This document shows, in pieces, positions 28,953-39,270 of a stretch of 64,000 nt of DNA (position 1 is its first letter; the number at the start of each line of letters is the position of its first letter). Location of the stretch: positions 248,001 to 312,000 of the forward strand of contig NZ_JALPRP010000002.1 of NCBI RefSeq assembly GCF_023195915.1, read 5' to 3'. Below the pieces are notes generated by a model that saw only the letters and a list, made by a program, of their open reading frames with translations, was not told where the DNA came from and did not search any database. The position numbers and the translations under genes are program-made. Source of the DNA: Methanoculleus sp. 7T (GTDB lineage: Archaea; Halobacteriota; Methanomicrobia; Methanomicrobiales; Methanoculleaceae).

Positions 28953-29952
28953 GGTCTACCGCCCGAAGCGGTGCGACGATATCATCGGACAGGACGAGGT
29001 CGTCCGCTACCTTGTCTCGTTTGCGGACGCGCGGAGCGTGCCCCATATGCTCATCTCAGGCCCGCACGGCACCGGCAAGACCATAGCCGTCGAGTGTATG
29101 GCGCGAAGGCTCTACGCCGAGAACTGGGAGGCGAACACGAGCGTCTTCAGCGCCGCCGACCTCCTCGGGAGAGGGAGGAGCGCTCTTGAGACCGATGAGC
29201 GCTTTGCCCAGATCTACCGGAAGGACCAGAGCCTGATCGTCAACTTCAAGTACATCGTGAAGTGGTACGCCTCGATGCGTCCGCTCGACGCCGACTTCAA
29301 ACTGATGGTCTTTGAGGACGCCGAGGACCTGACGTTTGAGGCGCAGCAGGCCCTGCGGCGGACCATGGAGCGCTACAGCGCCACATGCCGGTTCATCTTC
29401 GTCACCACCCGGCCTTCGGCGGTCATCCCCGCCATCGCGTCGCGGTGCCTGCCGCTCTTCTTCGCCCCGCTCGAGAGCGCAACCGTCCGCGCCCGCCTTG
29501 AGGAGATCCTCGCCGCCGAGGGGGCCGCGCTCCCGGCCGACGACCTCGACCTGATCGTCCATGCCGCACAGGGCGACCTGCGGCGGGCGATCGTCTACCT
29601 GCAACTCGCCGTCGAGTTGGGGGACGACTTCGACCTCGCGGAGGTCTCGCGCTCCGAGACCGGGAACGTGGCCGCATCTGCGTTCGACGCCGTACGGGCC
29701 GGCAACTTCGACGCCGCACGCCGGATCGCCGAGTCGCTGATGATCGAGTACGGGCTCTCGGCGCGGGAGGTCGTCCACGAACTCCGGCAGGTGGTCAGGC
29801 GCGAATGCTACAGCCACCCGGTCCTTGCCGTCGCGCTCGCCGACGCGGACCACCGGCTCTGCCACAACGCAAACGACTTTGTGCAGGTCAATGCACTTCT
29901 TGCCCGGATTGCTCGGGAGGTGTTCGGTGAAGAAAGTACAGCAACACTATGA
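28939..29952 (+). CDS. second, divergent replication factor C small subunit
   Basis: A 337-residue RFC-type AAA+ protein. The RFC box is SEVYRPKRCDDIIGQ, Walker A GPHGTGKT (41-48) and the arginine-finger motif SRC (168-170). Walker B differs: where RfcS has LDEADAL this protein has FEDAEDL (125-131), so the usual DE pair is reversed to ED. An insert of about 15 residues with LGRGRSALETDE follows the first helix. Methanosarcina has two different RFC small-subunit-type proteins plus a large subunit, and this is probably the equivalent of its second one. Position in the CoA operon suggests shared transcription, not shared function. Confidence 0.85.
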   Translation: MLWSEVYRPKRCDDIIGQDEVVRYLVSFADARSVPHMLISGPHGTGKTIAVECMARRLYAENWEANTSVFSAADLLGRGRSALETDERFAQIYRKDQSLIVNFKYIVKWYASMRPLDADFKLMVFEDAEDLTFEAQQALRRTMERYSATCRFIFVTTRPSAVIPAIASRCLPLFFAPLESATVRARLEEILAAEGAALPADDLDLIVHAAQGDLRRAIVYLQLAVELGDDFDLAEVSRSETGNVAASAFDAVRAGNFDAARRIAESLMIEYGLSAREVVHELRQVVRRECYSHPVLAVALADADHRLCHNANDFVQVNALLARIAREVFGEESTATL

Positions 29953-30643
29953 CGAGGTCGCGGATATCTACGACGACCGCTACGACGGCCACCGCGGGAG
30001 GTGTTACCACGGGCACATCTCCGACCATGTGATGAACGCGCTCCCGAAGGGGGGTCTCCTCCTCGACATCGGGTGCGGGACCGGGCTCTTTGTGGAGCGC
30101 TACGTCGAGGAGGGCGGCCGGGCGGTCGGCCTCGATATCAGCCCCGGCATGGTCCGGCACGGGCGGCAGCGCTGTCCTGACAGCGAGTTCTGCGTCGGGA
30201 CCGCCGATATCCTCCCATTCCGGGACGCCACTTTCGATGCCCTCGCAAGCCTGCTCGCCTTCAGTTACGTCCCCGACCCGGAGGCTATGCTCCGGGAGTC
30301 CTACCGGGTCTTGAAGCCCGGCGGCCGGATCGCCGTCTGCACCCTCTCGCGGACGGTCTTTACGAGCGTCGTCCCGCTCATCTACCGGATGGGAGAGAAG
30401 GCCGGCCTAAAGAGCGTCTGCGTCGGAGACTTCGACGAGCACTACTACACCAACGACGAGATTGCCTCACTCTTCAGCGAGGCCGGGTTCGAGGACGTCT
30501 CGGTCAGCCGGTGCACGTTTGCGCATTTAAGCCTCGCAGACCCGATATTTACACTCGCCCGGAAGGTGGAGCCCTTCGTTGAGGAGAACCTCCCCTACCT
30601 CGCCTATAACGTCTGTGCGGCCGGAAAAAAACCGGAAGATTGA
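29927..30643 (+). CDS. class I SAM-dependent methyltransferase (UbiE/COQ5-like)
   Basis: A 238-residue protein starting at GTG, 26 bases inside the end of the second RFC gene. SAM motif I is LLDIGCGTGLFVERY (about residues 41-55); GLDISPGMV follows near 67, DILPFRDATFD near 93, and the post-motif SYRVLKPGGR near 125. The YDEVADIYDDRYD beginning is common in methyltransferases acting on small molecules. The substrate is unknown. Overlap with the upstream gene indicates translational coupling at the end of a long operon. Confidence 0.82.
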   Translation: MKKVQQHYDEVADIYDDRYDGHRGRCYHGHISDHVMNALPKGGLLLDIGCGTGLFVERYVEEGGRAVGLDISPGMVRHGRQRCPDSEFCVGTADILPFRDATFDALASLLAFSYVPDPEAMLRESYRVLKPGGRIAVCTLSRTVFTSVVPLIYRMGEKAGLKSVCVGDFDEHYYTNDEIASLFSEAGFEDVSVSRCTFAHLSLADPIFTLARKVEPFVEENLPYLAYNVCAAGKKPED

Positions 30644-30883: not shown

Positions 30884-31157
30884 ATGGAGCCGGTCGATAT
30901 CGTCCTGACGAAGGATACGTTCGAGGTCCTTGGACCCGGGACCCGGCTTGATATTTTAAAGACCTTATCCTCACGCAGGATGACGGTCACGGAACTCGCG
31001 GACAGCCAGTCCACGGTTCATCACCACCTGCAGAGGCTAGCCGACGCCGGTCTTGTCGCCGCCGACGATGGCGGGCACGCCTGGGTGTATTACGCGCTCG
31101 CGATGATCGGGGAGTCCCGGCAGCAGAGGACTTCTCTGTGGATGAGGGAGTCATGTA
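30884..31157 (+). pseudogene. decayed copy of the membrane-anchored winged-helix regulator
   Basis: The first 75 or so codons are close to the intact regulator at 33775 (both begin MEPVDIVLTKDTFEVL). Two deletions spoil this copy. Twelve bases are lost after ELADS, removing four residues of the helix-turn-helix. About 210 bases are lost between two GCGCTC words, removing the first membrane segment and shifting the rest. The frame stays open by chance to 31402, across the conserved leader. The promoter before it (AGTTATAT, about 30852) is almost the same as that of the intact gene. Confidence 0.75.
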
Positions 31158-31398
31158 ATCTATATACGCTTTTCACATCCGTTCGACCGAGATCGAACGC
31201 TTTCAACGGTCTTATCGCACCAAAAGACCAAAAAACAGTTGTAGATACTCCACGCGGCACCCCTGCCGGCGCGGTGTTTATTCATCGGCGGCCCGGGGCC
31301 GAGGTGCGCTCTGCGTGCCCAAAGACACCGGTTTCGCCGGTGTTCACGAGGAACAACCGCTGCGGCTCTCTGCCCCGGCGGCTATGGAGGTTAGATGA
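31158..31398 (+). promoter_or_regulatory. serpin 1 promoter with palindromic operator and long conserved leader
   Basis: TATA box TCTATATAC (31159-31167), then the palindrome CGTTCGACCGAGATCGAACG (31180-31199, 7-bp arms, 6-bp spacer) centred 26 bp downstream, where transcription should begin. The 200-base leader that follows is similar to that before the C39 gene and ends with a small hairpin (CACCGG-TTTCG-CCGGTG, about 31329-31345) and GGAGG at 31386-31390. Confidence 0.7.
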
Positions 31399-32670
31399 AT
31401 GAGAACAGATCCTTTCCCGAATATTTGCATTCTGCTGGTTCTGGCATCGCTGGTCGCACTCGGCTGTATGGTCGCGGGATGCGCCGGGATACCGGGAACG
31501 ATGCCCGCAAGCACCACCCTGCCGACAGGGACGATCAACGTAACACCTGGAAATAGCTGGTTCGCGTTCGATCTCTACCGGTGCCTCGCGACCGACCCGG
31601 TTCATGCGGGCGAAAACATCTTCTTCTCGCCCTACAGCATCTCGTCGGCCCTTGCGATCACCCGTGAAGGTGCCCGCGGCACGACCGCCGACGAGATCGA
31701 ATCGGTGCTGCACCTTCCGGAGAACGAGACCATCCGGAGAGCCGGGTTTGCCGGGCTGGATGCCTGGCTGAACCGGGGGAACGGCAACTACACCCTCCAC
31801 ACGGCAAACGCCCTCTGGGCAGAGGAGACCTACCCGTTCCTCCCGGACTACATCGACGTGGCCGCTCGCTGGTACGGAGCAAACGTCACGAACCTCGACT
31901 TCAAGAACAAACCCGAGGGGTCGCGGGAGACGATCAACCAGTGGGTGGAGGAGCGGACCGAAGATCGGATCCGCGACCTGTTACCAGATGGTTCAGTCAA
32001 CCCCCTGACCCGGCTCGTGATCACGAACGCGATCTACTTCAAGGGCACCTGGGCCGAGCAGTTCGACCCCGACAGGACGACCGATGAGGGGTTCCGGGTT
32101 GCACCGGACGAGACCGTGACCGTCCCGATGATGCACGGGGACGCCGTCTATGGGTATACAGAGACCGAAGCCCTCCAGGCGCTCGAGATGCCATATGCCC
32201 ACGAGAGCGGGAACGGCCTTGCGATGCTCGTCCTTCTGCCGAAGGAAGATAACCTGACGGCTGCCGAAGAGGCCTTCGACGACGAAACGGTTGCAGGACT
32301 CCGGAAGTCATTGATACAGAAGCGCGTCATGGTCTTCTTCCCGAAGTTCACGCTTGATGCAGAGTACAGCCTTCGGGGAACCCTTTCGGCGATGGGGATG
32401 CCGACGGCGTTTACCGACGATGCCGACCTCTCCGGGATGGACGGCACAAGGGGTCTCTTCATCAGCAACGTCGTCCATAAGGCGTTCGTGGACGTGAACG
32501 AGGAGGGGACCGAGGCCGCGGCAGCGACCGGTGTTGTGATAGCGGAGGGTGTACAGCCGGAGCTCGCACCCGTCTTCCGTGCGGACCACCCGTTTGTCTT
32601 CCTCATCGTCGAGAAGGACACCGGCACGATCCTCTTCATGGGGAGGGTCGTTAACCCCGAAGGCCCGTGA
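31399..32670 (+). CDS. secreted serpin (serine/cysteine protease inhibitor), lipoprotein-like
   Basis: A 423-residue serpin. The N-terminus has a hydrophobic signal sequence ending in a lipobox-like VAGC near residue 28, suggesting a lipid-anchored exported protein. The serpin fold begins near residue 50 with FAFDLYR and has the breach/shutter words FFSPYSISSALAI, GARGTTADEI, ITNAIYFKGTW and PVFRADHPFVFLI. The hinge of the reactive loop, NEEGTEAAAAT (near 372-382), has the small-residue run expected of an inhibitory serpin. The target protease is unknown. A second serpin with strong similarity lies at 36306, and a C39-like protein lies between them. Confidence 0.93.
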   Translation: MRTDPFPNICILLVLASLVALGCMVAGCAGIPGTMPASTTLPTGTINVTPGNSWFAFDLYRCLATDPVHAGENIFFSPYSISSALAITREGARGTTADEIESVLHLPENETIRRAGFAGLDAWLNRGNGNYTLHTANALWAEETYPFLPDYIDVAARWYGANVTNLDFKNKPEGSRETINQWVEERTEDRIRDLLPDGSVNPLTRLVITNAIYFKGTWAEQFDPDRTTDEGFRVAPDETVTVPMMHGDAVYGYTETEALQALEMPYAHESGNGLAMLVLLPKEDNLTAAEEAFDDETVAGLRKSLIQKRVMVFFPKFTLDAEYSLRGTLSAMGMPTAFTDDADLSGMDGTRGLFISNVVHKAFVDVNEEGTEAAAATGVVIAEGVQPELAPVFRADHPFVFLIVEKDTGTILFMGRVVNPEGP

Positions 32671-32701
32671 AGGGGAGGGTGTTCTCTCCCCTACCCGGGG
32701 G

Positions 32702-32800
32702 CGGCAGGGTGCCCTCCCATCCATAGTCTCGATGCCCGCCGCACTCGCCCACCCGCGTAATCCCTGCAGGAGGCCAGAGAAAAGAACACGGGCACGGCAC
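32702..32800 (+). repeat. duplicated 3' flank of serpin 1
   Basis: This stretch (from GGCAGGGTGCCCTCCCATCC onward) is closely similar to 37677-37772 behind serpin 2. It shows that the duplication unit extends about 120 bases beyond each serpin stop. No gene is seen in it. Confidence 0.75.
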
Positions 32801-32883
32801 AGGCGGATGAAGAGGCGGTTGACGATTACGAAGGCGTTGCCGAGAACGCCACCTTGATGGCCGGCGAGGGGGACGACATCACC
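32800..32883 (+). pseudogene. internal fragment of a C39-like secreted protein gene
   Basis: Translated in the frame starting at 32800, it reads YEGVAENATLMAGEGDDI, which matches YEAVAKNVTLMADEEDDI in the C39-like protein at 34561-35886 (about 13 of 18 residues). Nothing of the rest of that gene remains. It marks a lost further copy of the C39-like gene next to serpin 1. Confidence 0.6.
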
Positions 32884-32937
32884 ATCAGACTTATCTCTGA
32901 AAAACCCAATCTCCCAGTAACAAAGAGGTGTAACGTC

Positions 32938-33213
32938 ATGCTGGTCACATTTGAAGTAACCTATGCTGAGGGATGGTGGAGCGCCAGCGCACATGCACCT
33001 GGGAATGCCATCTGTACCCAGGGCAAGAGCGTTGGAGAACTCATCGACAACATCCTGGAAGCAACGTCGCTCCATTACGCGGAAGAACTCGAAGCGGGAG
33101 AACGGATCACCATTGTAACCGGGTATAAGTCGGAGACCCACGAACAGGAGAGCCCGATCCCATCAAATTTCGAATACAAGGTCGATATCATTGCCGCGAC
33201 ACCCGGTTGTTAG
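32938..33213 (+). CDS. HicB-like antitoxin
   Basis: A 91-residue protein with the HicB/UPF0150-type partial RNase H fold: a TFEVTYAEGWWSASAHAP strand pair, then GKSVGELIDNILEATSLHY. The ATG at 32938 is preceded by AGAGGTG. It overlaps the HicA-like gene by 23 bases, the usual coupling of a toxin-antitoxin pair. A DNA-binding tail is not obvious. It probably neutralises the adjacent toxin and may autoregulate the pair. The module lies between two gene fragments, consistent with insertion. Confidence 0.65.
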   Translation: MLVTFEVTYAEGWWSASAHAPGNAICTQGKSVGELIDNILEATSLHYAEELEAGERITIVTGYKSETHEQESPIPSNFEYKVDIIAATPGC

Positions 33214-33433
33214 TGGATTTAAGACGATCAAAGTCCTTGAAAAACTCGGTTTTTCTTTTCTCCGGCAGGTCGGGAGCCATGTCCAGATGCGTAAGGTTGT
33301 TGGAGATAAACGGCTCCGGGTTACCATACCCCTTCACGACGAACTCAGCATGGCCACGCAGAACACAATCGTCACCGACGTCGCAGAATTTGAGGGTATG
33401 ACAAAAGAGCAAATCTACGATCTCTTACGGTAA
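33191..33433 (+). CDS. HicA-like mRNA interferase toxin
   Basis: An 80-residue protein with the HicA/YcfA double-stranded-RNA-binding-like fold: RHPVVSGFKTIKVLEKLGFSF, the active-site QVGSHVQMRK (histidine near residue 29), and the TIPLHDELSMATQNTIV segment. It starts at TTG, a weak start that could keep toxin level below antitoxin level. HicA toxins bind and cut mRNA. Both genes look intact. Confidence 0.72.
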   Translation: MPRHPVVSGFKTIKVLEKLGFSFLRQVGSHVQMRKVVGDKRLRVTIPLHDELSMATQNTIVTDVAEFEGMTKEQIYDLLR

Positions 33434-33489
33434 CCCTCTTCTTAAGCCAACAAATATCCTTCCGCGAATCGAGAATGTATCCCATCTCC

Positions 33490-33735
33490 TCACGAAGGCC
33501 GGAGCCGAGAGTGGATCTGGAGCTTCTTTGCAAGCGCCAAGTCCCGGATCTCGCCGCCGACCGAGAGGACGGATTCGGGCGCTCCTTCTCCAATGTAACC
33601 TCCGACCACAGTGAACACCCTCCCATAGTGGGGCTCCTCCTTGACCTCGGGGCGGGGCTGGTTGCCGTAACCGGGACGAGCAGCAGAGAAGAGGGCGAAC
33701 GATCCGGCCGCATGGAGGAGATGCGTGGACGATAA
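33490..33735 (-). pseudogene. open fragment resembling the 3' part of the AIR-synthase-like gene
   Basis: On the minus strand an open frame without a start codon ends at 33490. Part of it reads GYIGEGAPESVLSVGGEIRD, resembling GYVEEGKPESVLKVDGEIRD in the intact protein encoded at 37846-39174; the DNA is also similar (33537-33590 versus about 38003-38050). The flanking parts do not match, so this is at best a small relic. Confidence 0.4.
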
Positions 33736-33774
33736 GGGAACAGTTATATGTCGCCTTTCCTGAATAACTCCTCA
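33735..33774 (+). promoter_or_regulatory. promoter of the winged-helix regulator
   Basis: ACAGTTATATG (about 33740-33750) is a TATA box about 30 bases before the ATG at 33775, implying a leaderless or nearly leaderless transcript. The sequence up to and beyond the start (CTCCTCAATGGAGCCGGTCG) is shared with the decayed copy at 30850-30900. Confidence 0.6.
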
Positions 33775-34317
33775 ATGGAGCCGGTCGATATCGTCCTGAC
33801 GAAGGATACGTTCGAGGTCCTTGCATCCGAGACCCGGCTTAACATCCTAAAGGCCTTATCCCCACGCAGGATGACGGTCACGGAACTCGCGGACAGCCTT
33901 GACCTGGCAAAGTCCACAGTTCATCACCACCTGCAGAGGCTGGCCGACGCCGGTCTTGTCGCCGCCGATGATGGCGGGCACGCTTGGGTGTATTACGCGC
34001 TCACGCCGGAGGGGCGGGGCCTCCTGCAGCCGCACGACGGCGCCCGGATCAGGGTTCTCCTGACTGCAGGGCTGGCAAGCCTCGCCGGAGGGGTCTGTGC
34101 CGTCGCGGCCTTCCTGACGGCGCCGGCCCGGGACGGGGCGTTGCCCCCGCTCCCGGGAGGGGGAGGCATCCCGGTCCCGGAGGGGCCTCCCGTGGAACTG
34201 CTCGTTGTCGGGATCGCGCTCGCGGTGATCGGGGGAGTCCTGGTGGCGTATGCCTGCGCCCGGCGACGGAACAGACGTGCGGTGGGGGGTTTCCCTGCGG
34301 ACAGAAAAGCCACGTAA
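33775..34317 (+). CDS. membrane-anchored ArsR-like winged-helix transcriptional regulator
   Basis: A 180-residue protein. Residues 10-85 form an ArsR-type winged helix: FEVLASETRLNILKAL, then MTVTELADSLDLAKSTVHHHLQRL as the helix-turn-helix and a GGHAWVYYALTPEG wing. Two hydrophobic segments follow (about 102-122 and 140-162) before a basic RRRNRRAV end, so DNA binding is probably tethered to the membrane. It may sense an envelope or external signal. Its stop is followed at once by the TATA box of the C39-like gene. A damaged second copy lies upstream of serpin 1. The target DNA is inferred to be the GTTCGA palindromes; not shown. Confidence 0.82.
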   Translation: MEPVDIVLTKDTFEVLASETRLNILKALSPRRMTVTELADSLDLAKSTVHHHLQRLADAGLVAADDGGHAWVYYALTPEGRGLLQPHDGARIRVLLTAGLASLAGGVCAVAAFLTAPARDGALPPLPGGGGIPVPEGPPVELLVVGIALAVIGGVLVAYACARRRNRRAVGGFPADRKAT

Positions 34318-34560
34318 TCCCTATATGTAGTTTTCGGATACGTTCGACCGGGATCGAACATTTTCGCCGGTTTTATCGCACCGGGAGACCAAAAGGCTGC
34401 TGTAGATGCCGCATGCGGCGCCCGTAGCCAGCGTAGTGTTCATTCATCGATGGTTCGGGACCGAAGTGTGCGCTCTGCATGCCCGGAGGCATCGGTTTCG
34501 CCGGTATTCACGAGGAATAATCGTTGCGGCTCCATGCCTCAATGGCTATGGAGGTTAAGA
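34318..34560 (+). promoter_or_regulatory. C39-like gene promoter with palindromic operator and long conserved leader
   Basis: TATA box CCCTATATGTAG (34319-34330) follows the regulator's stop directly. The palindrome GTTCGACCGGGATCGAAC (34342-34359) is centred about 26 bp downstream. The remaining leader matches that of serpin 1 along most of its length, with the same small hairpin (ATCGG-TTTCG-CCGGT) and GGAGG at 34550-34554. Confidence 0.7.
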
Positions 34561-35886
34561 ATGATGAAAACGGATTCCTTCTTGAAGACCGGCGCTCTGC
34601 TGGCGGTGCTGCTCGCCATGGGGGTAGTCGTCGCTCCCGTCATGGCGGGAGAGGTGACCAAACAGCTCTCCGTGCCCTACTACCAGCAGGAGACGCCGTA
34701 CTACTGTGGCCCGGCGGTCGCACAGATGTGGATAGACTTCCACAACGGTTACATCCCACAGGATACGCTATGGAATTGTATTCAAAATAATAACAGAGAA
34801 CTATGGCACACCGACCCATACGGGCTCGCGGCTTGCGTGAGCGACTACCTCAACAACTTCGTCGCCGAGGATCGCAGATGGAGTTATTTCAACACGGCAA
34901 ACATCGCTATGGCGATGGATATCGTGGACGTAGACAATCCTACGCCTGCGCTGATCTATTCCGGGGATCACTGGGTCCTGGTAAAAGGTGTGTCATATGA
35001 GGATTACTACGGGAGTGTATACAACGTATATGGCTTCTGGGTTCATGATCCTCAATTCGGTGCAAACCAGCATTATCTCATGGACCGTTGGAGTAGCGAA
35101 TTCACCCCGGTGGACGTAGACGGAAGTTACTGGGACGGTCACTGGACTCACTTGCGGGGCTACTGGAGTACTGATGCTGCTGGGACTGTGTCCCAGGATG
35201 TGGTATCATTGGAGACTAGAGGAGCGCCTGGGGGAGGCGTCACCCATCCCGCGGTCTGGAGCGACACCCTGGTCCGGCCGACGCTGACCGCAGGGGTCGA
35301 CCGGGAGACCTACTACGACCAGATGACGGCGTACTATGAGGCCGTGGCGAAAAACGTCACCCTGATGGCCGACGAGGAGGACGACATCCCCCTGACCGAG
35401 GATACCAATCTCGCCGACCTCGGCATGCGGGTCAAGCAGATGATGACTGAAAAATTCAAACTTCACTTGGATGAATTCGAGGGCGCAGTTCCCGGTGAGC
35501 CGGTCTTCGTACACTCACTGGACGAGAAATGGTATGATTACTACTTGATCCCCTTTGAGAGGGATGGATACATTACTGTCGTTGTAGAAGTATCCATTAA
35601 GGGCAACGTTGCAGATCCCGGTGTTTCCTATGCGCCTGAGGCAAAGACCCAATCGGTCGTCCGCCCAACGTTGGAGGAAGCACAGGCAGTCCTCGCGGAA
35701 GGCAGCTACGACAGCACCATGCCTGCCCGGTTGGTCTGGAAGCCCTGTGAGCAGACCACATCACCAATGCTCCCAGTCTGGGAGTTTACCGGTGACGGCG
35801 GAGATACAGTCTACGTCGGCTACGCTCCCTGGAAGGACAGGGTCGAGATCTACGAAGAACTGACGATGAAGAAGATTCCAGGATAA
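34561..35886 (+). CDS. secreted C39/papain-like cysteine peptidase family protein
   Basis: A 441-residue exported protein: signal peptide (residues 1-30, ending near VMA), then a C39-like domain. The probable catalytic Cys is in TPYYCGPAVAQMWIDF (near 49), the His in SGDHWVLVKG (near 141) and the Asp in WVHDPQ (near 166). This is the Cys-His-Asp order of papain-like C39 peptidases. The C-terminal half (about 230-440) is not recognised and ends with an RLVWKPCEQ to VWEFTG beta-rich segment. It may cleave proteins outside the cell; the flanking genes encode serpins. The ATG has GGAGG six bases upstream. An internal piece of a second copy survives at 32800. Confidence 0.8.
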   Translation: MMKTDSFLKTGALLAVLLAMGVVVAPVMAGEVTKQLSVPYYQQETPYYCGPAVAQMWIDFHNGYIPQDTLWNCIQNNNRELWHTDPYGLAACVSDYLNNFVAEDRRWSYFNTANIAMAMDIVDVDNPTPALIYSGDHWVLVKGVSYEDYYGSVYNVYGFWVHDPQFGANQHYLMDRWSSEFTPVDVDGSYWDGHWTHLRGYWSTDAAGTVSQDVVSLETRGAPGGGVTHPAVWSDTLVRPTLTAGVDRETYYDQMTAYYEAVAKNVTLMADEEDDIPLTEDTNLADLGMRVKQMMTEKFKLHLDEFEGAVPGEPVFVHSLDEKWYDYYLIPFERDGYITVVVEVSIKGNVADPGVSYAPEAKTQSVVRPTLEEAQAVLAEGSYDSTMPARLVWKPCEQTTSPMLPVWEFTGDGGDTVYVGYAPWKDRVEIYEELTMKKIPG

Positions 35887-36159
35887 TGTGTGGACCTCCG
35901 GAATCGGGCCGTCCTCCTATTCCCTGGAGGGCCTCATCCCATCCCCTTTTTGACTGATACCTGATTCAAGAAAAATGTTATTCAGGGGTAATTTGATAAT
36001 GCCCAACAGGTATCCCTCTGCCATCACTCCCGCTTCCCGATGTCGTGAATCTCCAGAACCATGCTGAGGGGATATCTGCAAAGGTTCGCGAACCCAAGTA
36101 ACCGGGTTAGTGACGTAGACCTTGCTATGGCGTATGGTTCCGCCCTGTCCGGTGAGACA

Positions 36160-36305
36160 TGAAGATCGTGTTCATATATGTTCCGGACCTGTTCGACCGG
36201 GATCGAACGCTTTCACCGGTATTATCGTCTTTCTGCGAGAGAGAATCCATGTGGATGCCCGGGGGATATCCGGCCTTTTCCCGATGCGATCCACGGGAGA
36301 GAACG
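36160..36305 (+). promoter_or_regulatory. serpin 2 promoter with palindromic operator
   Basis: TATA-like TTCATATATG (36171-36180), then GTTCGACCGGGATCGAAC (36191-36208), centred about 23-24 bp downstream, followed by GCTTTCACCGGT as in the other two copies. The leader is shorter, about 100 bases, and a GGGAGAG ribosome-binding site precedes the ATG at 36306. The interval 35887-36159 contains no gene I can support. Confidence 0.68.
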
Positions 36306-37598
36306 ATGAAAGGACAGATACTGCTATTCTCCAGAATAGGCATCCTGGTTCTGGCGCTCATTCTTGCAGGGCTGACCGCCGCCGGTACCATACCTCAGAA
36401 CACGGCTTCGGTCTCCGGCGAACCCGGATCCGGGGACGTCGGTATCGCCCGTCCAGATACGCCGAACGGCGCCGGTAACGCGACGGCCGGGAACAACCGG
36501 TTCGCATTCGATCTCTACCGGCGCCTCGCGACCGACCCGGCGTATGCGGAAGGCAACCTCTTCTTCTCGCCCTACAGCATCTCGTCGGCCCTCGCGATCA
36601 CCCGTGAAGGTGCCCGCAGCACGACCGCCGATGAGATTGAATCGGTGCTCCACCTCCCAACGAACGATACCCTCCGGCGGGAGGGATTCGCCGACCTCAA
36701 TGCCGCCCTGAACCGTGAGAGCAGTAACTGCACTCTCCGCATTGTAAACGCCCTCTGGGCGGAGGAAACCTACTCGTTCCTCCCCGACTACATCGATGTG
36801 GCCGCCCGCGGGTATGGGGCAAACGTCACAAATCTCGATTTCATCGAGAACCCCGAGGGATCGCGGCAGACGATCAACCGGTGGGTGGAGGGGCAGACCG
36901 AAGATCGGATCCGCGACCTCCTCCCGCCCGGCTCGGTCGACCCGCTGACCCGGCTCGTGATCACGAACGCGGTCTACTTCAAGGGCACCTGGGTCGAACA
37001 GTTCGACCCCGCCGGGACGACCGATGAGGGATTCCGGGTTGCACCGGGCAAGACCGTGACCGTCCCGATGATGCACGGAGACGCCGTCTATCCCTACACA
37101 GAGACCGAGACCCTCCGGGTGCTCGAAATGCCGTATGCGCACGGGAACAAGACCGAACTCGCGATGCTCGTCCTTCTCCCGAAAGAGGAGAACCTGACGG
37201 CGGTGGAAGAAAACCTGGACACGGAGAAGCTTGCCGACCTCCGGGAGTCGCTCGCCTCGCAGAGGGTCAGGGTCTTCTTCCCGAAGTTCACGCTTGATGC
37301 GGAGTATCTCCTTCCAGGAGCGCTTGCGGCGATGGGGATGCCGACGGCGTTCACCGGCGATGCCGACCTGTCGGGGATGGACGGGATGAAGGACCTTTTC
37401 GTCACCGGAGTCTTCCATAAGGCGTTCGTTGACGTGAATGAGGAGGGTACCGAGGCTGCGGCAGCGACCGGGGTCATAGCCGGGCGGGGTGTCACACCTG
37501 TCTTCCGTGCGGACCACCCGTTTGTCTTCCTCATCGTCGAGAAGGATTCCGGCGCGATCCTCTTCATGGGGAGGGTCGTCAACCCCGAAGGCCCGTGA
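36306..37598 (+). CDS. secreted serpin 2
   Basis: A 430-residue serpin, paralogous to the one at 31399 with long identical stretches. It has an N-terminal hydrophobic signal (about residues 8-28) but no lipobox. The serpin core starts near residue 62 (FAFDLYRRLATDP). The hinge EEGTEAAAAT is intact, so inhibition is plausible. The reactive loop behind it (TGVIAGRGVTP) is about four residues shorter and differs from serpin 1 (TGVVIAEGVQPELAP), so the two probably inhibit different proteases. The in-frame upstream region from 36159 contains the operator and is unlikely to be translated. Confidence 0.92.
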   Translation: MKGQILLFSRIGILVLALILAGLTAAGTIPQNTASVSGEPGSGDVGIARPDTPNGAGNATAGNNRFAFDLYRRLATDPAYAEGNLFFSPYSISSALAITREGARSTTADEIESVLHLPTNDTLRREGFADLNAALNRESSNCTLRIVNALWAEETYSFLPDYIDVAARGYGANVTNLDFIENPEGSRQTINRWVEGQTEDRIRDLLPPGSVDPLTRLVITNAVYFKGTWVEQFDPAGTTDEGFRVAPGKTVTVPMMHGDAVYPYTETETLRVLEMPYAHGNKTELAMLVLLPKEENLTAVEENLDTEKLADLRESLASQRVRVFFPKFTLDAEYLLPGALAAMGMPTAFTGDADLSGMDGMKDLFVTGVFHKAFVDVNEEGTEAAAATGVIAGRGVTPVFRADHPFVFLIVEKDSGAILFMGRVVNPEGP

Positions 37599-37676
37599 GG
37601 GGGAACAGGGGCGGTCCTCTCCCCCCTCCGTCGGTAACGGATACCGGGGCGGCTGCCGGCCACCTGCTTCAGGGAG

Positions 37677-37772
37677 TGGCAGGGTGCCCTCCCATCCGTA
37701 GTCTCGACGCCCATCGCACTTGCCCACCCGTATACTCCTGCAGGAGACCAGAGAAAAGATCACGGGCTTGGC
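37677..37772 (+). repeat. duplicated 3' flank of serpin 2
   Basis: Matches 32702-32800 behind serpin 1 for nearly 100 bases, including GGCAGGGTGCCCTCCCATCC and CAGAGAAAAGA. It shows that both serpins were copied with their flanks. No coding function is seen. Confidence 0.75.
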
Positions 37773-37845: not shown

Positions 37846-39174
37846 TTAGGAGGACCGGAGCCGGGCAAGAACCCGGTCCTTCTTCGCGATCGCCGCCTCT
37901 GCGGCCCGCTCGACCCCGATCTTCATCTCCTCGAAATCTCTTTTGTCGCCGTCTACGACCTTCTTCACCGGGGTGTAGGCCGACTCCCGGAACCTGGGCG
38001 AGAAGTCCCGGATCTCGCCGTCGACCTTGAGGACGGATTCGGGCTTTCCTTCCTCGACGTAGCCGATCTCTTTCATCGCGACGCCTGCAGACCCGACGAC
38101 CCGCCGGATCTCAGGGGCAAGTTCGGGCGGCGCGACGACCAGCAGGGCGTCGAGGGAGACACCGAGGTAGTCGATCTCGAGGGCGTCGAGCATCTTGAGG
38201 ACTTTCGGCTGCACGAGCGTCCGGAGTTCGTCCTCGACGACGACGATCCGGCACCCGGCGGTCTCGGCCATCTCGTAGGCGTCGCCCCGCAGCCCGCCGT
38301 TCGTGACGTCGGTCATGGCGTGGATGCCGGAGAGGACGCTGCTCGCAAGGAGCGCCTCGCAGGCTTTGAGGAAGTGGAGGTTGATCGTCTCCTCGACGAC
38401 CTCGGGGAACCCGGAGTAGATCGCGGCGGTGGCGATGGTTCCGCCGCCGGCCCCTTCGGTCATGAGGAGGACGTCGCCGGGCTCTATCTGTTTCCGGGCG
38501 GTGAGGTGCCTGGCGACACCGACGGCGCCGACGCAGCCGGTCAGCCGGGAGCCGAGCACCATGTCCCCGCCGATGCGCAAGGTGGAGCCGGTCACGAGGG
38601 GGACGCCCATCGCCTCGCCGACGGCGGTGACGCCCGCTGTGTAGTCGAAGATCTTCGCGACGTCGCCGTCGTCGGCGACGTGGATATCTGAGAGGAGCGC
38701 GACGGGTTTTGCGCCCATCACGTAGACGTCCCGGAGCGTCGCTCGGGTGACGTGGAACCCGGCAAGGAAGGGGAAGTCGGAGAGGCGGGAGTGCATCCCG
38801 TCGACGGTGGTGATGATATAGTCCCCTTCGGCACGGACGGCCCCGGCGTCGTCCATCTCGTCGACGCCGACCGCTGCCGACGTCCTGCCGATGATCCGGG
38901 CAAGCTGCCGGTGGGCGAAGAAGTCCCCGGCTCCCCGCGAGCCGACACCGAACTCGCCCATGGTCGAGCCGGAGGGCTCGAAGGTGAAGAGGTCGCCGGC
39001 AAGTCCGGTCGAGTTCTTCGCCTCGGTAAGGACCGCTCGGGCGAACTCTTCGGCATAGGCGGGGCTGATGCGGTTGCGCTTGATTGTAAGGATATCTTGG
39101 GACAGAAGGCGCACGATATCGTCGTCAGGGGTGCCGGCAGCGAGGTGCCGGCGGCTGATCTCTTCTACATCCAT
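37846..39174 (-). CDS. AIR synthase-related protein (PurM/HypE/SelD superfamily)
   Basis: About 442 residues. The N-terminal 90 residues (MDVEEISRRHLAAGTPDD start) are an extension. The ATP-binding AIRS domain starts with SGSTMGEFGVGSRGAGDF and has DEMDDAGAV, the usual DD-type metal site near 125-130, then the LSDIHVADDGDVA region. The C-terminal domain has the MTDVTNGGLRGD motif near 297. The superfamily includes PurM, HypE, SelD and ThiL; this longer archaeal branch has no firmly known substrate. The ATG at 39174 fits better than the upstream GTG/ATG frames, which run into the intergenic region shared with thiD. Confidence 0.78.
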   Translation of the reverse strand: MDVEEISRRHLAAGTPDDDIVRLLSQDILTIKRNRISPAYAEEFARAVLTEAKNSTGLAGDLFTFEPSGSTMGEFGVGSRGAGDFFAHRQLARIIGRTSAAVGVDEMDDAGAVRAEGDYIITTVDGMHSRLSDFPFLAGFHVTRATLRDVYVMGAKPVALLSDIHVADDGDVAKIFDYTAGVTAVGEAMGVPLVTGSTLRIGGDMVLGSRLTGCVGAVGVARHLTARKQIEPGDVLLMTEGAGGGTIATAAIYSGFPEVVEETINLHFLKACEALLASSVLSGIHAMTDVTNGGLRGDAYEMAETAGCRIVVVEDELRTLVQPKVLKMLDALEIDYLGVSLDALLVVAPPELAPEIRRVVGSAGVAMKEIGYVEEGKPESVLKVDGEIRDFSPRFRESAYTPVKKVVDGDKRDFEEMKIGVERAAEAAIAKKDRVLARLRSS

Positions 39175-39270
39175 CGTAAGAGTGGTCGGTGCGGGACCAG
39201 ATAAAGGGAGTGGCGGCGGTGCTCTCTCTGCCGGCAAAGATTCAAGCAGATCCGCGCCAAAATGTGATGG

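Follow-up and report, generated by a model that had tools for sequence, protein, structure and literature searches.

What controls the secreted serpins of Methanoculleus sp. 7T? In the window analysed here, a stretch of 64,000 nucleotides from contig NZ_JALPRP010000002.1 (positions 248,001 to 312,000), two serpin genes and a gene for a secreted C39-like protein share a locus with an intact regulator gene, termed REG, and the palindrome GTTCGA-N6-TCGAAC. A preliminary description had listed the regulator, a damaged copy of it, two inhibitory-type serpins, the C39-like gene and a fragment of a second one, and all of these were confirmed in place. As judged from the sequence comparisons presented below, REG is probably a one-component, membrane-tethered repressor that acts on the serpin or C39-like gene through the palindrome and may be released by a change in the cell envelope.

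REG, palindrome and secreted gene occur together

The exact palindrome is found three times in the 2.6 Mb assembly of this genome, from which our genome-wide counts were taken. All three copies lie at the locus, one ahead of each serpin or C39-like gene, and the reversed pattern, used as a control, has 0 copies in the same 2.6 Mb. Because the only exact copies of the genome sit at the locus and the reversed control is empty, chance is excluded. Palindrome 1 (GTTCGACCGAGATCGAAC; 31181-31198, + strand) precedes serpin A, while palindromes 2 and 3 (both GTTCGACCGGGATCGAAC; 34342-34359 and 36191-36208, + strand) precede the C39-like gene and serpin B, respectively. All three were located by motif search and are predicted operators.

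The preliminary description had proposed that regulator and palindrome should co-occur in related genomes. REG orthologues (75-82% identity) were encoded by 13 of the 25 genomes of a first sample. All 13 carry the palindrome shortly downstream (12 exact, one with a single mismatch). A serpin or C39 gene comes next, and their units all lie between the same two flanking genes. Eight further REG genomes, found only later, provided a held-out test: the palindrome was present in 8/8 (seven exact, one with one mismatch) and was followed by a serpin in seven and by a C39 gene in one. Over all REG-bearing Methanoculleus genomes, the palindrome thus stands just 3' of REG in 21/21 (19 exact, two with one mismatch), and an exact palindrome occurs in 1 of 12 genomes without intact REG. 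The proposed co-occurrence was therefore borne out, and the palindrome is essentially absent where the regulator is missing.

The linkage is equally exclusive at the level of the order. Across 199 genomes of Methanomicrobiales, the extended motif GTTCGRNNNNNNYCGAACNNTTTC yielded 26 sites in 22 genomes, each with a regulator of the REG clade; these are 19 Methanoculleus genomes together with G064, G075 and G123. The motif missed two REG genomes, both of which carry a mismatch, and its reversed control gave 0 sites over the same 199 genomes. That regulator, palindrome and serpin or C39 gene form one conserved unit is thus well supported by sequence comparison. A decayed unit was also seen in genome G157 (L314:49-1432), in which a serpin lies beside a regulator remnant and the palindrome is lost.

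REG carries an ArsR-type winged helix and predicted membrane helices

REG (33775-34317, + strand) is a protein of 180 amino acids. Its winged helix matches HTH_5 (E 2e-14) and HTH_20 (E 6e-15) and is of the ArsR type (PF01022, 53.6 bits at a cut-off of 22; NF033788, 64.8 bits at a cut-off of 55). In an AlphaFold2 (AF2) model, the helices within residues 10-84 form the winged helix, with the recognition helix at 46-58, and two membrane-length helices follow at 88-115 and 140-171. Foldseek matches were SmtB, CzrA and HlyU. By sequence inspection, residues 1-92 contain no cysteine and hence no metal-sensing cysteine motif. Profiles, AF2 and the relatives of REG place a DNA-binding domain and membrane segments in one polypeptide, and the predicted membrane anchor, already suggested earlier, is backed by hydropathy, the model and the relatives. 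As positive residues border the membrane helices on the cytoplasmic side, the 23-residue Pro/Gly-rich loop between them should face outward.

The damaged copy (30884-31402, + strand) is a winged-helix remnant with 93-95% DNA identity to REG over two stretches. It has lost four codons where the recognition helix begins, as well as both membrane helices.

The palindrome overlies the expected start of transcription

Conservation among 25 sites spans the TATA element to ~40 nt beyond the start of the palindrome. The half-sites reach 2.0 bits, compared to only 0.3-0.6 bits in the 30-60 nt upstream. A TATA-like hexamer begins 18 nt before the palindrome in 15 of the 25 sites, the commonest spacing, which places the palindrome over the expected start site. 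In the window, TATA-like elements were assigned from sequence and promoter geometry at 31161-31166 (serpin A), 34322-34327 (C39-like gene) and 36175-36179 (serpin B), all on the + strand. At archaeal promoters, a site over the transcription start is the position of a repressor. Since the palindrome overlies the expected start site, downstream of TATA, REG is likely a repressor.

The same linkage and co-occurrence would also fit REG as an activator that, upon an envelope signal, would use the palindrome to recruit transcription to the secreted gene. Some membrane-tethered regulators do activate, as do some proteins of the ArsR fold, e.g. HlyU, which is among the fold matches of REG. However, activators in archaea generally bind upstream of the B recognition element (BRE) and the TATA box, and a palindrome downstream of TATA and over the expected start site makes an activator unlikely.

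The block right after the palindrome (GnTTTCgcCGGTnTTATCG; 31199-31217, 34360-34378 and 36209-36227) is strongly conserved, partly in other genera as well, and is possibly an initiation or leader element.

A model for repression by REG

In the repressor model, the cytoplasmic ArsR-type winged helix of REG would bind the 18-bp GTTCGA-N6-TCGAAC as a dimer and, seated over the transcription start, would keep the serpin or C39-like gene off. A change in the envelope would loosen REG, and the secreted protein would then be made. The usual product in Methanoculleus would be a serpin that shields the cell surface, the C39-like protein being the presumed older occupant of the slot. As for the signal, our best guess, held at low confidence, is protease attack: proteases of foreign origin, or released by the cell itself, would act at or close to the short conserved loop that joins the membrane helices.

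Several observations weigh against this model. The Methanoculleus loci descend from one insertion, and the conservation of their promoters does not represent 21 independent events. The AF2 model of REG is only moderate (pLDDT, the predicted local distance difference test score, of 72). Among the 21 REG orthologues, the majority residue reaches frequencies of 0.92 and 0.88 in the two membrane helices, while winged helix, loop and tail score 0.91, 0.85 and 0.70, respectively; the loop is thus less conserved than the winged helix and does not indicate the sensed signal. Moreover, the promoter of REG itself has no palindrome, which argues against autoregulation there. Finally, the p values of the association tests are uncorrected for phylogeny.

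The unit occupies a fixed chromosomal site

The unit is bordered on the left by a methyltransferase gene (29897-30643, + strand), whose position is kept in all units whose contig extends there, and on the right by a marker gene (37846-39237, - strand) with a conserved position across units. The two flanking genes are adjacent to each other in genomes without the unit, and REG-less genomes hold nothing, hicBA only or serpin scraps between them. In the window, the methyltransferase gene is followed by the damaged regulator, palindrome 1, serpin A, a C39 fragment, a HicB/HicA-like pair (32854-33433; HicA, Pfam 45.6 bits) and a 67-bp fragment of the right flank gene; REG, palindrome 2, the C39-like gene, palindrome 3, serpin B and the right flank gene itself complete the order. 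HicB/HicA-like pairs have inserted independently at this site in many Methanoculleus genomes, whether or not these carry the serpin unit.

Such independent insertions, and the presence or absence of the unit in related genomes, would be expected if the site were a hotspot for defence or competition cargo, with serpin and C39-like protein directed against predators, competitors or viruses and REG merely a local switch. Yet no mobile-element genes were seen, the unit stays at one site, and relatives of REG elsewhere in genomes are linked to secreted peptidase-like genes, so that we hold a hotspot to be quite improbable as the explanation.

Serpin and C39-like genes look like alternative occupants of one slot

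Serpin A (31399-32670, + strand), which has a lipoprotein-type signal (VAGC) and a leader of the C39 rather than the serpin type, and serpin B (36306-37598, + strand), which has a signal peptide and a short reactive loop, both match PF00079 over their full length (E 1e-118 and 2e-117, respectively). The hinge EEGTEAAAAT of both proteins and their relatives is of the predicted inhibitory type (compare ExGTEAAAA in PMC8233489), and all serpins examined have an inhibitory hinge. The reactive loop of the unit serpins is mostly short, and close to the expected P1 the residue varies (R, K, G or L). Serpins had been called rare in archaea; in this order they are not, as 99 of its 199 genomes encode one.

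The C39-like protein (34561-35886, + strand) carries a signal peptide and scores 25.7 bits against Peptidase_C39_2 (cut-off 24). Cys49 and His137 are kept in its relatives, and Asp163 is replaced in L193. With a signal peptide and no exporter domain, it departs from the classical C39 architecture, the N-terminal domain of a bacteriocin ABC exporter. A comparison of its sequence with solved structures returned nothing significant, and its AF2 model, built from three sequences, was unusable (pLDDT 37). The fragment of a second C39-like gene (32827-32883, + strand; 79% over 57 bp) has a counterpart in another species (L084), where the same remnant follows the serpin.

Among the 21 genomes, the unit contains a serpin in 19 and a C39 gene in four; both are present in G000 and G011, and C39 stands alone in G016 and G091. 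When whole genomes were searched, C39 homologues turned up only in these four, and nowhere in the 17 serpin-only genomes. Because the serpin-only genomes lack a C39 homologue, the two genes seem to be alternatives for a single promoter slot.

This distribution bears directly on the earlier proposal of a balance set by REG, with the C39-like protein as protease and the serpins as its cognate inhibitors. In the window and in G011, the two do sit at one locus with a common operator, and some serpins inhibit papain-like enzymes. However, they share only 2 of the 21 units (two others being C39-only), and with 17 serpin-only genomes devoid of a C39 homologue, the serpin cannot generally exist to restrain the C39 protein. 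In addition, serpins A and B have different reactive loops, which also vary between species. We thus consider the balance very improbable. In the regulator tree, the Methanoculleus REGs group with the regulators of L192, L193 and L194 from other genera (support 100/97), and because these have a C39-like gene, or part of one, next to them, C39 probably came first in the slot.

Serpins also occur in other settings. Locus L308 (1-3175; genome G131, another family of the order) has a regulator-family fragment at the contig end beside two tandem serpins and, by its sequence, links a regulator to serpins for a second time, independently. Arrays of two to three serpin genes in other Methanomicrobiales (L310, L311, L312 and L313) have neither regulator nor palindrome nearby. 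In genome G035 (L309:3231-6706), two tandem serpins adjoin a short ArsR-like protein; this locus had served as a soluble control.

The duplicated block appears to be a mosaic

The 67-bp fragment (33534-33600, - strand; repeat family D10) stems from the 3' end of the right flank gene and marks the end of the repeated block, which must therefore have reached that gene. The first copy (REG', palindrome, serpin, C39 remnant, hicBA and marker-gene end) resembles the G008 allele, and the second (REG, palindrome, C39, palindrome and serpin) resembles the G011 allele. Diversification by duplication, as put forward previously, holds for the 5' parts of the regulators, which are recent copies (93-95%), but seemingly not for the serpins, which are 78% identical and whose sister relation is disfavoured by the approximately unbiased (AU) test (p 0.03). 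The block seems to combine two known allele types in a mosaic, in which the regulator part was later copied or converted. A separate origin of serpin A was also considered and dropped: it was placed with unlinked serpins only while one long row was in the tree, and without this row it groups with the serpins of the unit (95/92).

Relatives of REG adjoin secreted peptidase-like genes

A profile of the REG family found members in 62 of the 199 genomes of the order and also in Archaeoglobi, Methanophagales and DPANN, and nearly all of these relatives have two C-terminal membrane segments. For the distant ones (other Methanomicrobiales, Archaeoglobi, DPANN), secreted peptidase-like genes and related palindromes are frequent neighbours. 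A signal-peptide-like start is present in 84 of 186 open reading frames (ORFs) within 1.3 kb of family regulators versus 2 of 55 around soluble winged helix-turn-helix proteins, and 44 of 55 family loci versus 2 of 18 controls have such a neighbour, the calls being hydropathy-based, with a home-made ORF choice and a small control set. The neighbours include C39-like proteins, PepSY proteins, DUF6345 and an HExxH protein that weakly matches reprolysin. DUF6345 and others have His-Gly and Cys motifs and, in our reading of their sequences, resemble clan CD peptidases.

The motif GTTCG-N8-CGAAC occurs at 45 sites in 0.92 Mb of family loci, compared to 12 in total for eight control palindromes, and it also adjoins relatives in other genera and Archaeoglobi. 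Its subtype follows the recognition helix, which reads [KR]STVHHH in 14/14 GTTCGA loci and has E or Q at the middle position in 18/18 GTTCGG loci ([KR]STV[HY][EQ]H); this match at 32/32 loci needs one change on the tree and does not amount to 32 independent confirmations. That the palindrome is instead the site of another factor or an RNA element, with REG linked by synteny only, would suit a conserved block reaching ~20 nt into the transcribed leader, but the motif follows REG in its presence across genus and order and the recognition helix in its subtype, albeit by that one change, which leaves this idea with hardly any credit.

Candidate operators also accompany further relatives. REG2, a paralogous regulator of Methanoculleus (L096, L105, L115 and L235), has several GTTCGG-N6-CCGAAC sites near secreted peptidase-like genes; the window genome has neither REG2 nor such sites. 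The association of REG2 with the presence of GTTCGG is weaker than that of REG with its palindrome (13/17 versus 4/15, p 0.012). In Archaeoglobus and Geoglobus (L138:2060-2077 and L144:1950-1967), GTTCGTAAAAAACCGAAC starts 3 bp past the regulator gene, ahead of a secreted protein. At L195, L198, L102, L207, L209, L214 and L216, relatives adjoin a secreted protein family, two full-length members of which end in the serine-protease motif GDSGAP, and palindromes of the TTAGA-N6-TCTAA type lie nearby. In this serine-protease-linked clade, the motif takes 9th place among 1024 half-sites, behind AT-rich background words, and is suggestive only.

From these sequences, we tentatively envisage, at somewhat less than even confidence, that membrane-tethered ArsR-type repressors form a family widespread in archaea (Methanomicrobiales, Archaeoglobi and some DPANN), which would control secreted peptidases and peptidase inhibitors through a single operator geometry, TTNGA-N6-TCNAA, with the subtype set by the recognition helix and serpins recruited in Methanoculleus.

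Comparison with known systems

The functions of prokaryotic serpins have been called enigmatic (PMC8233489). Our searches of the open-licence literature on the regulation of archaeal serpins and on membrane regulators of archaeal proteases turned up no account of the unit. Our data suggest a shared, apparently undescribed way to control extracellular proteolysis in related archaea. Because it comes with its own regulator and operator, the serpin offers a way to test what archaeal serpins do: the factor that releases REG would reveal the threat the serpin answers. If true, serpins under control of the REG family in Methanoculleus offer a concrete setting to ask what archaeal serpins are for, and the wider family would provide a compact link between cell surface and promoter in archaea, made of a single protein, whose operator code can be read off the sequence.

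Transmembrane transcription regulators (TTRs) are enriched in Methanomicrobia according to a survey whose text mentions neither ArsR nor serpin (PMC10269533). Like REG, TTRs such as ToxR, CadC and TcpP unite a DNA-binding domain and membrane helices in one protein. Unlike these TTRs, REG has an N-terminal ArsR-type domain and a two-helix hairpin, and operator and targets are proposed here. With the ArsR/SmtB repressors (SmtB, CzrA and the archaeal Phr), REG shares the winged-helix fold and a palindromic operator at the promoter, but its winged helix has no cysteine metal site and it ends in a C-terminal membrane hairpin.

In Bifidobacterium breve, a protease-inducible two-component system lies beside the serpin operon (PMC8012564). 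As in the REG unit, a dedicated regulator of envelope signals adjoins a serpin gene; however, this is a two-component system in a bacterium, as opposed to a single tethered protein in archaea, and no histidine kinase or response regulator of the B. breve type is present between the two flanking genes. The SdpR model matches REG with an E of 5e-12, below the cut-off of that model. SdpR of Bacillus is a soluble ArsR-type repressor that is captured by a separate membrane protein, SdpI. Both systems couple an ArsR-type repressor functionally to the membrane, which takes two proteins in Bacillus, whereas REG would hold both functions in one chain.

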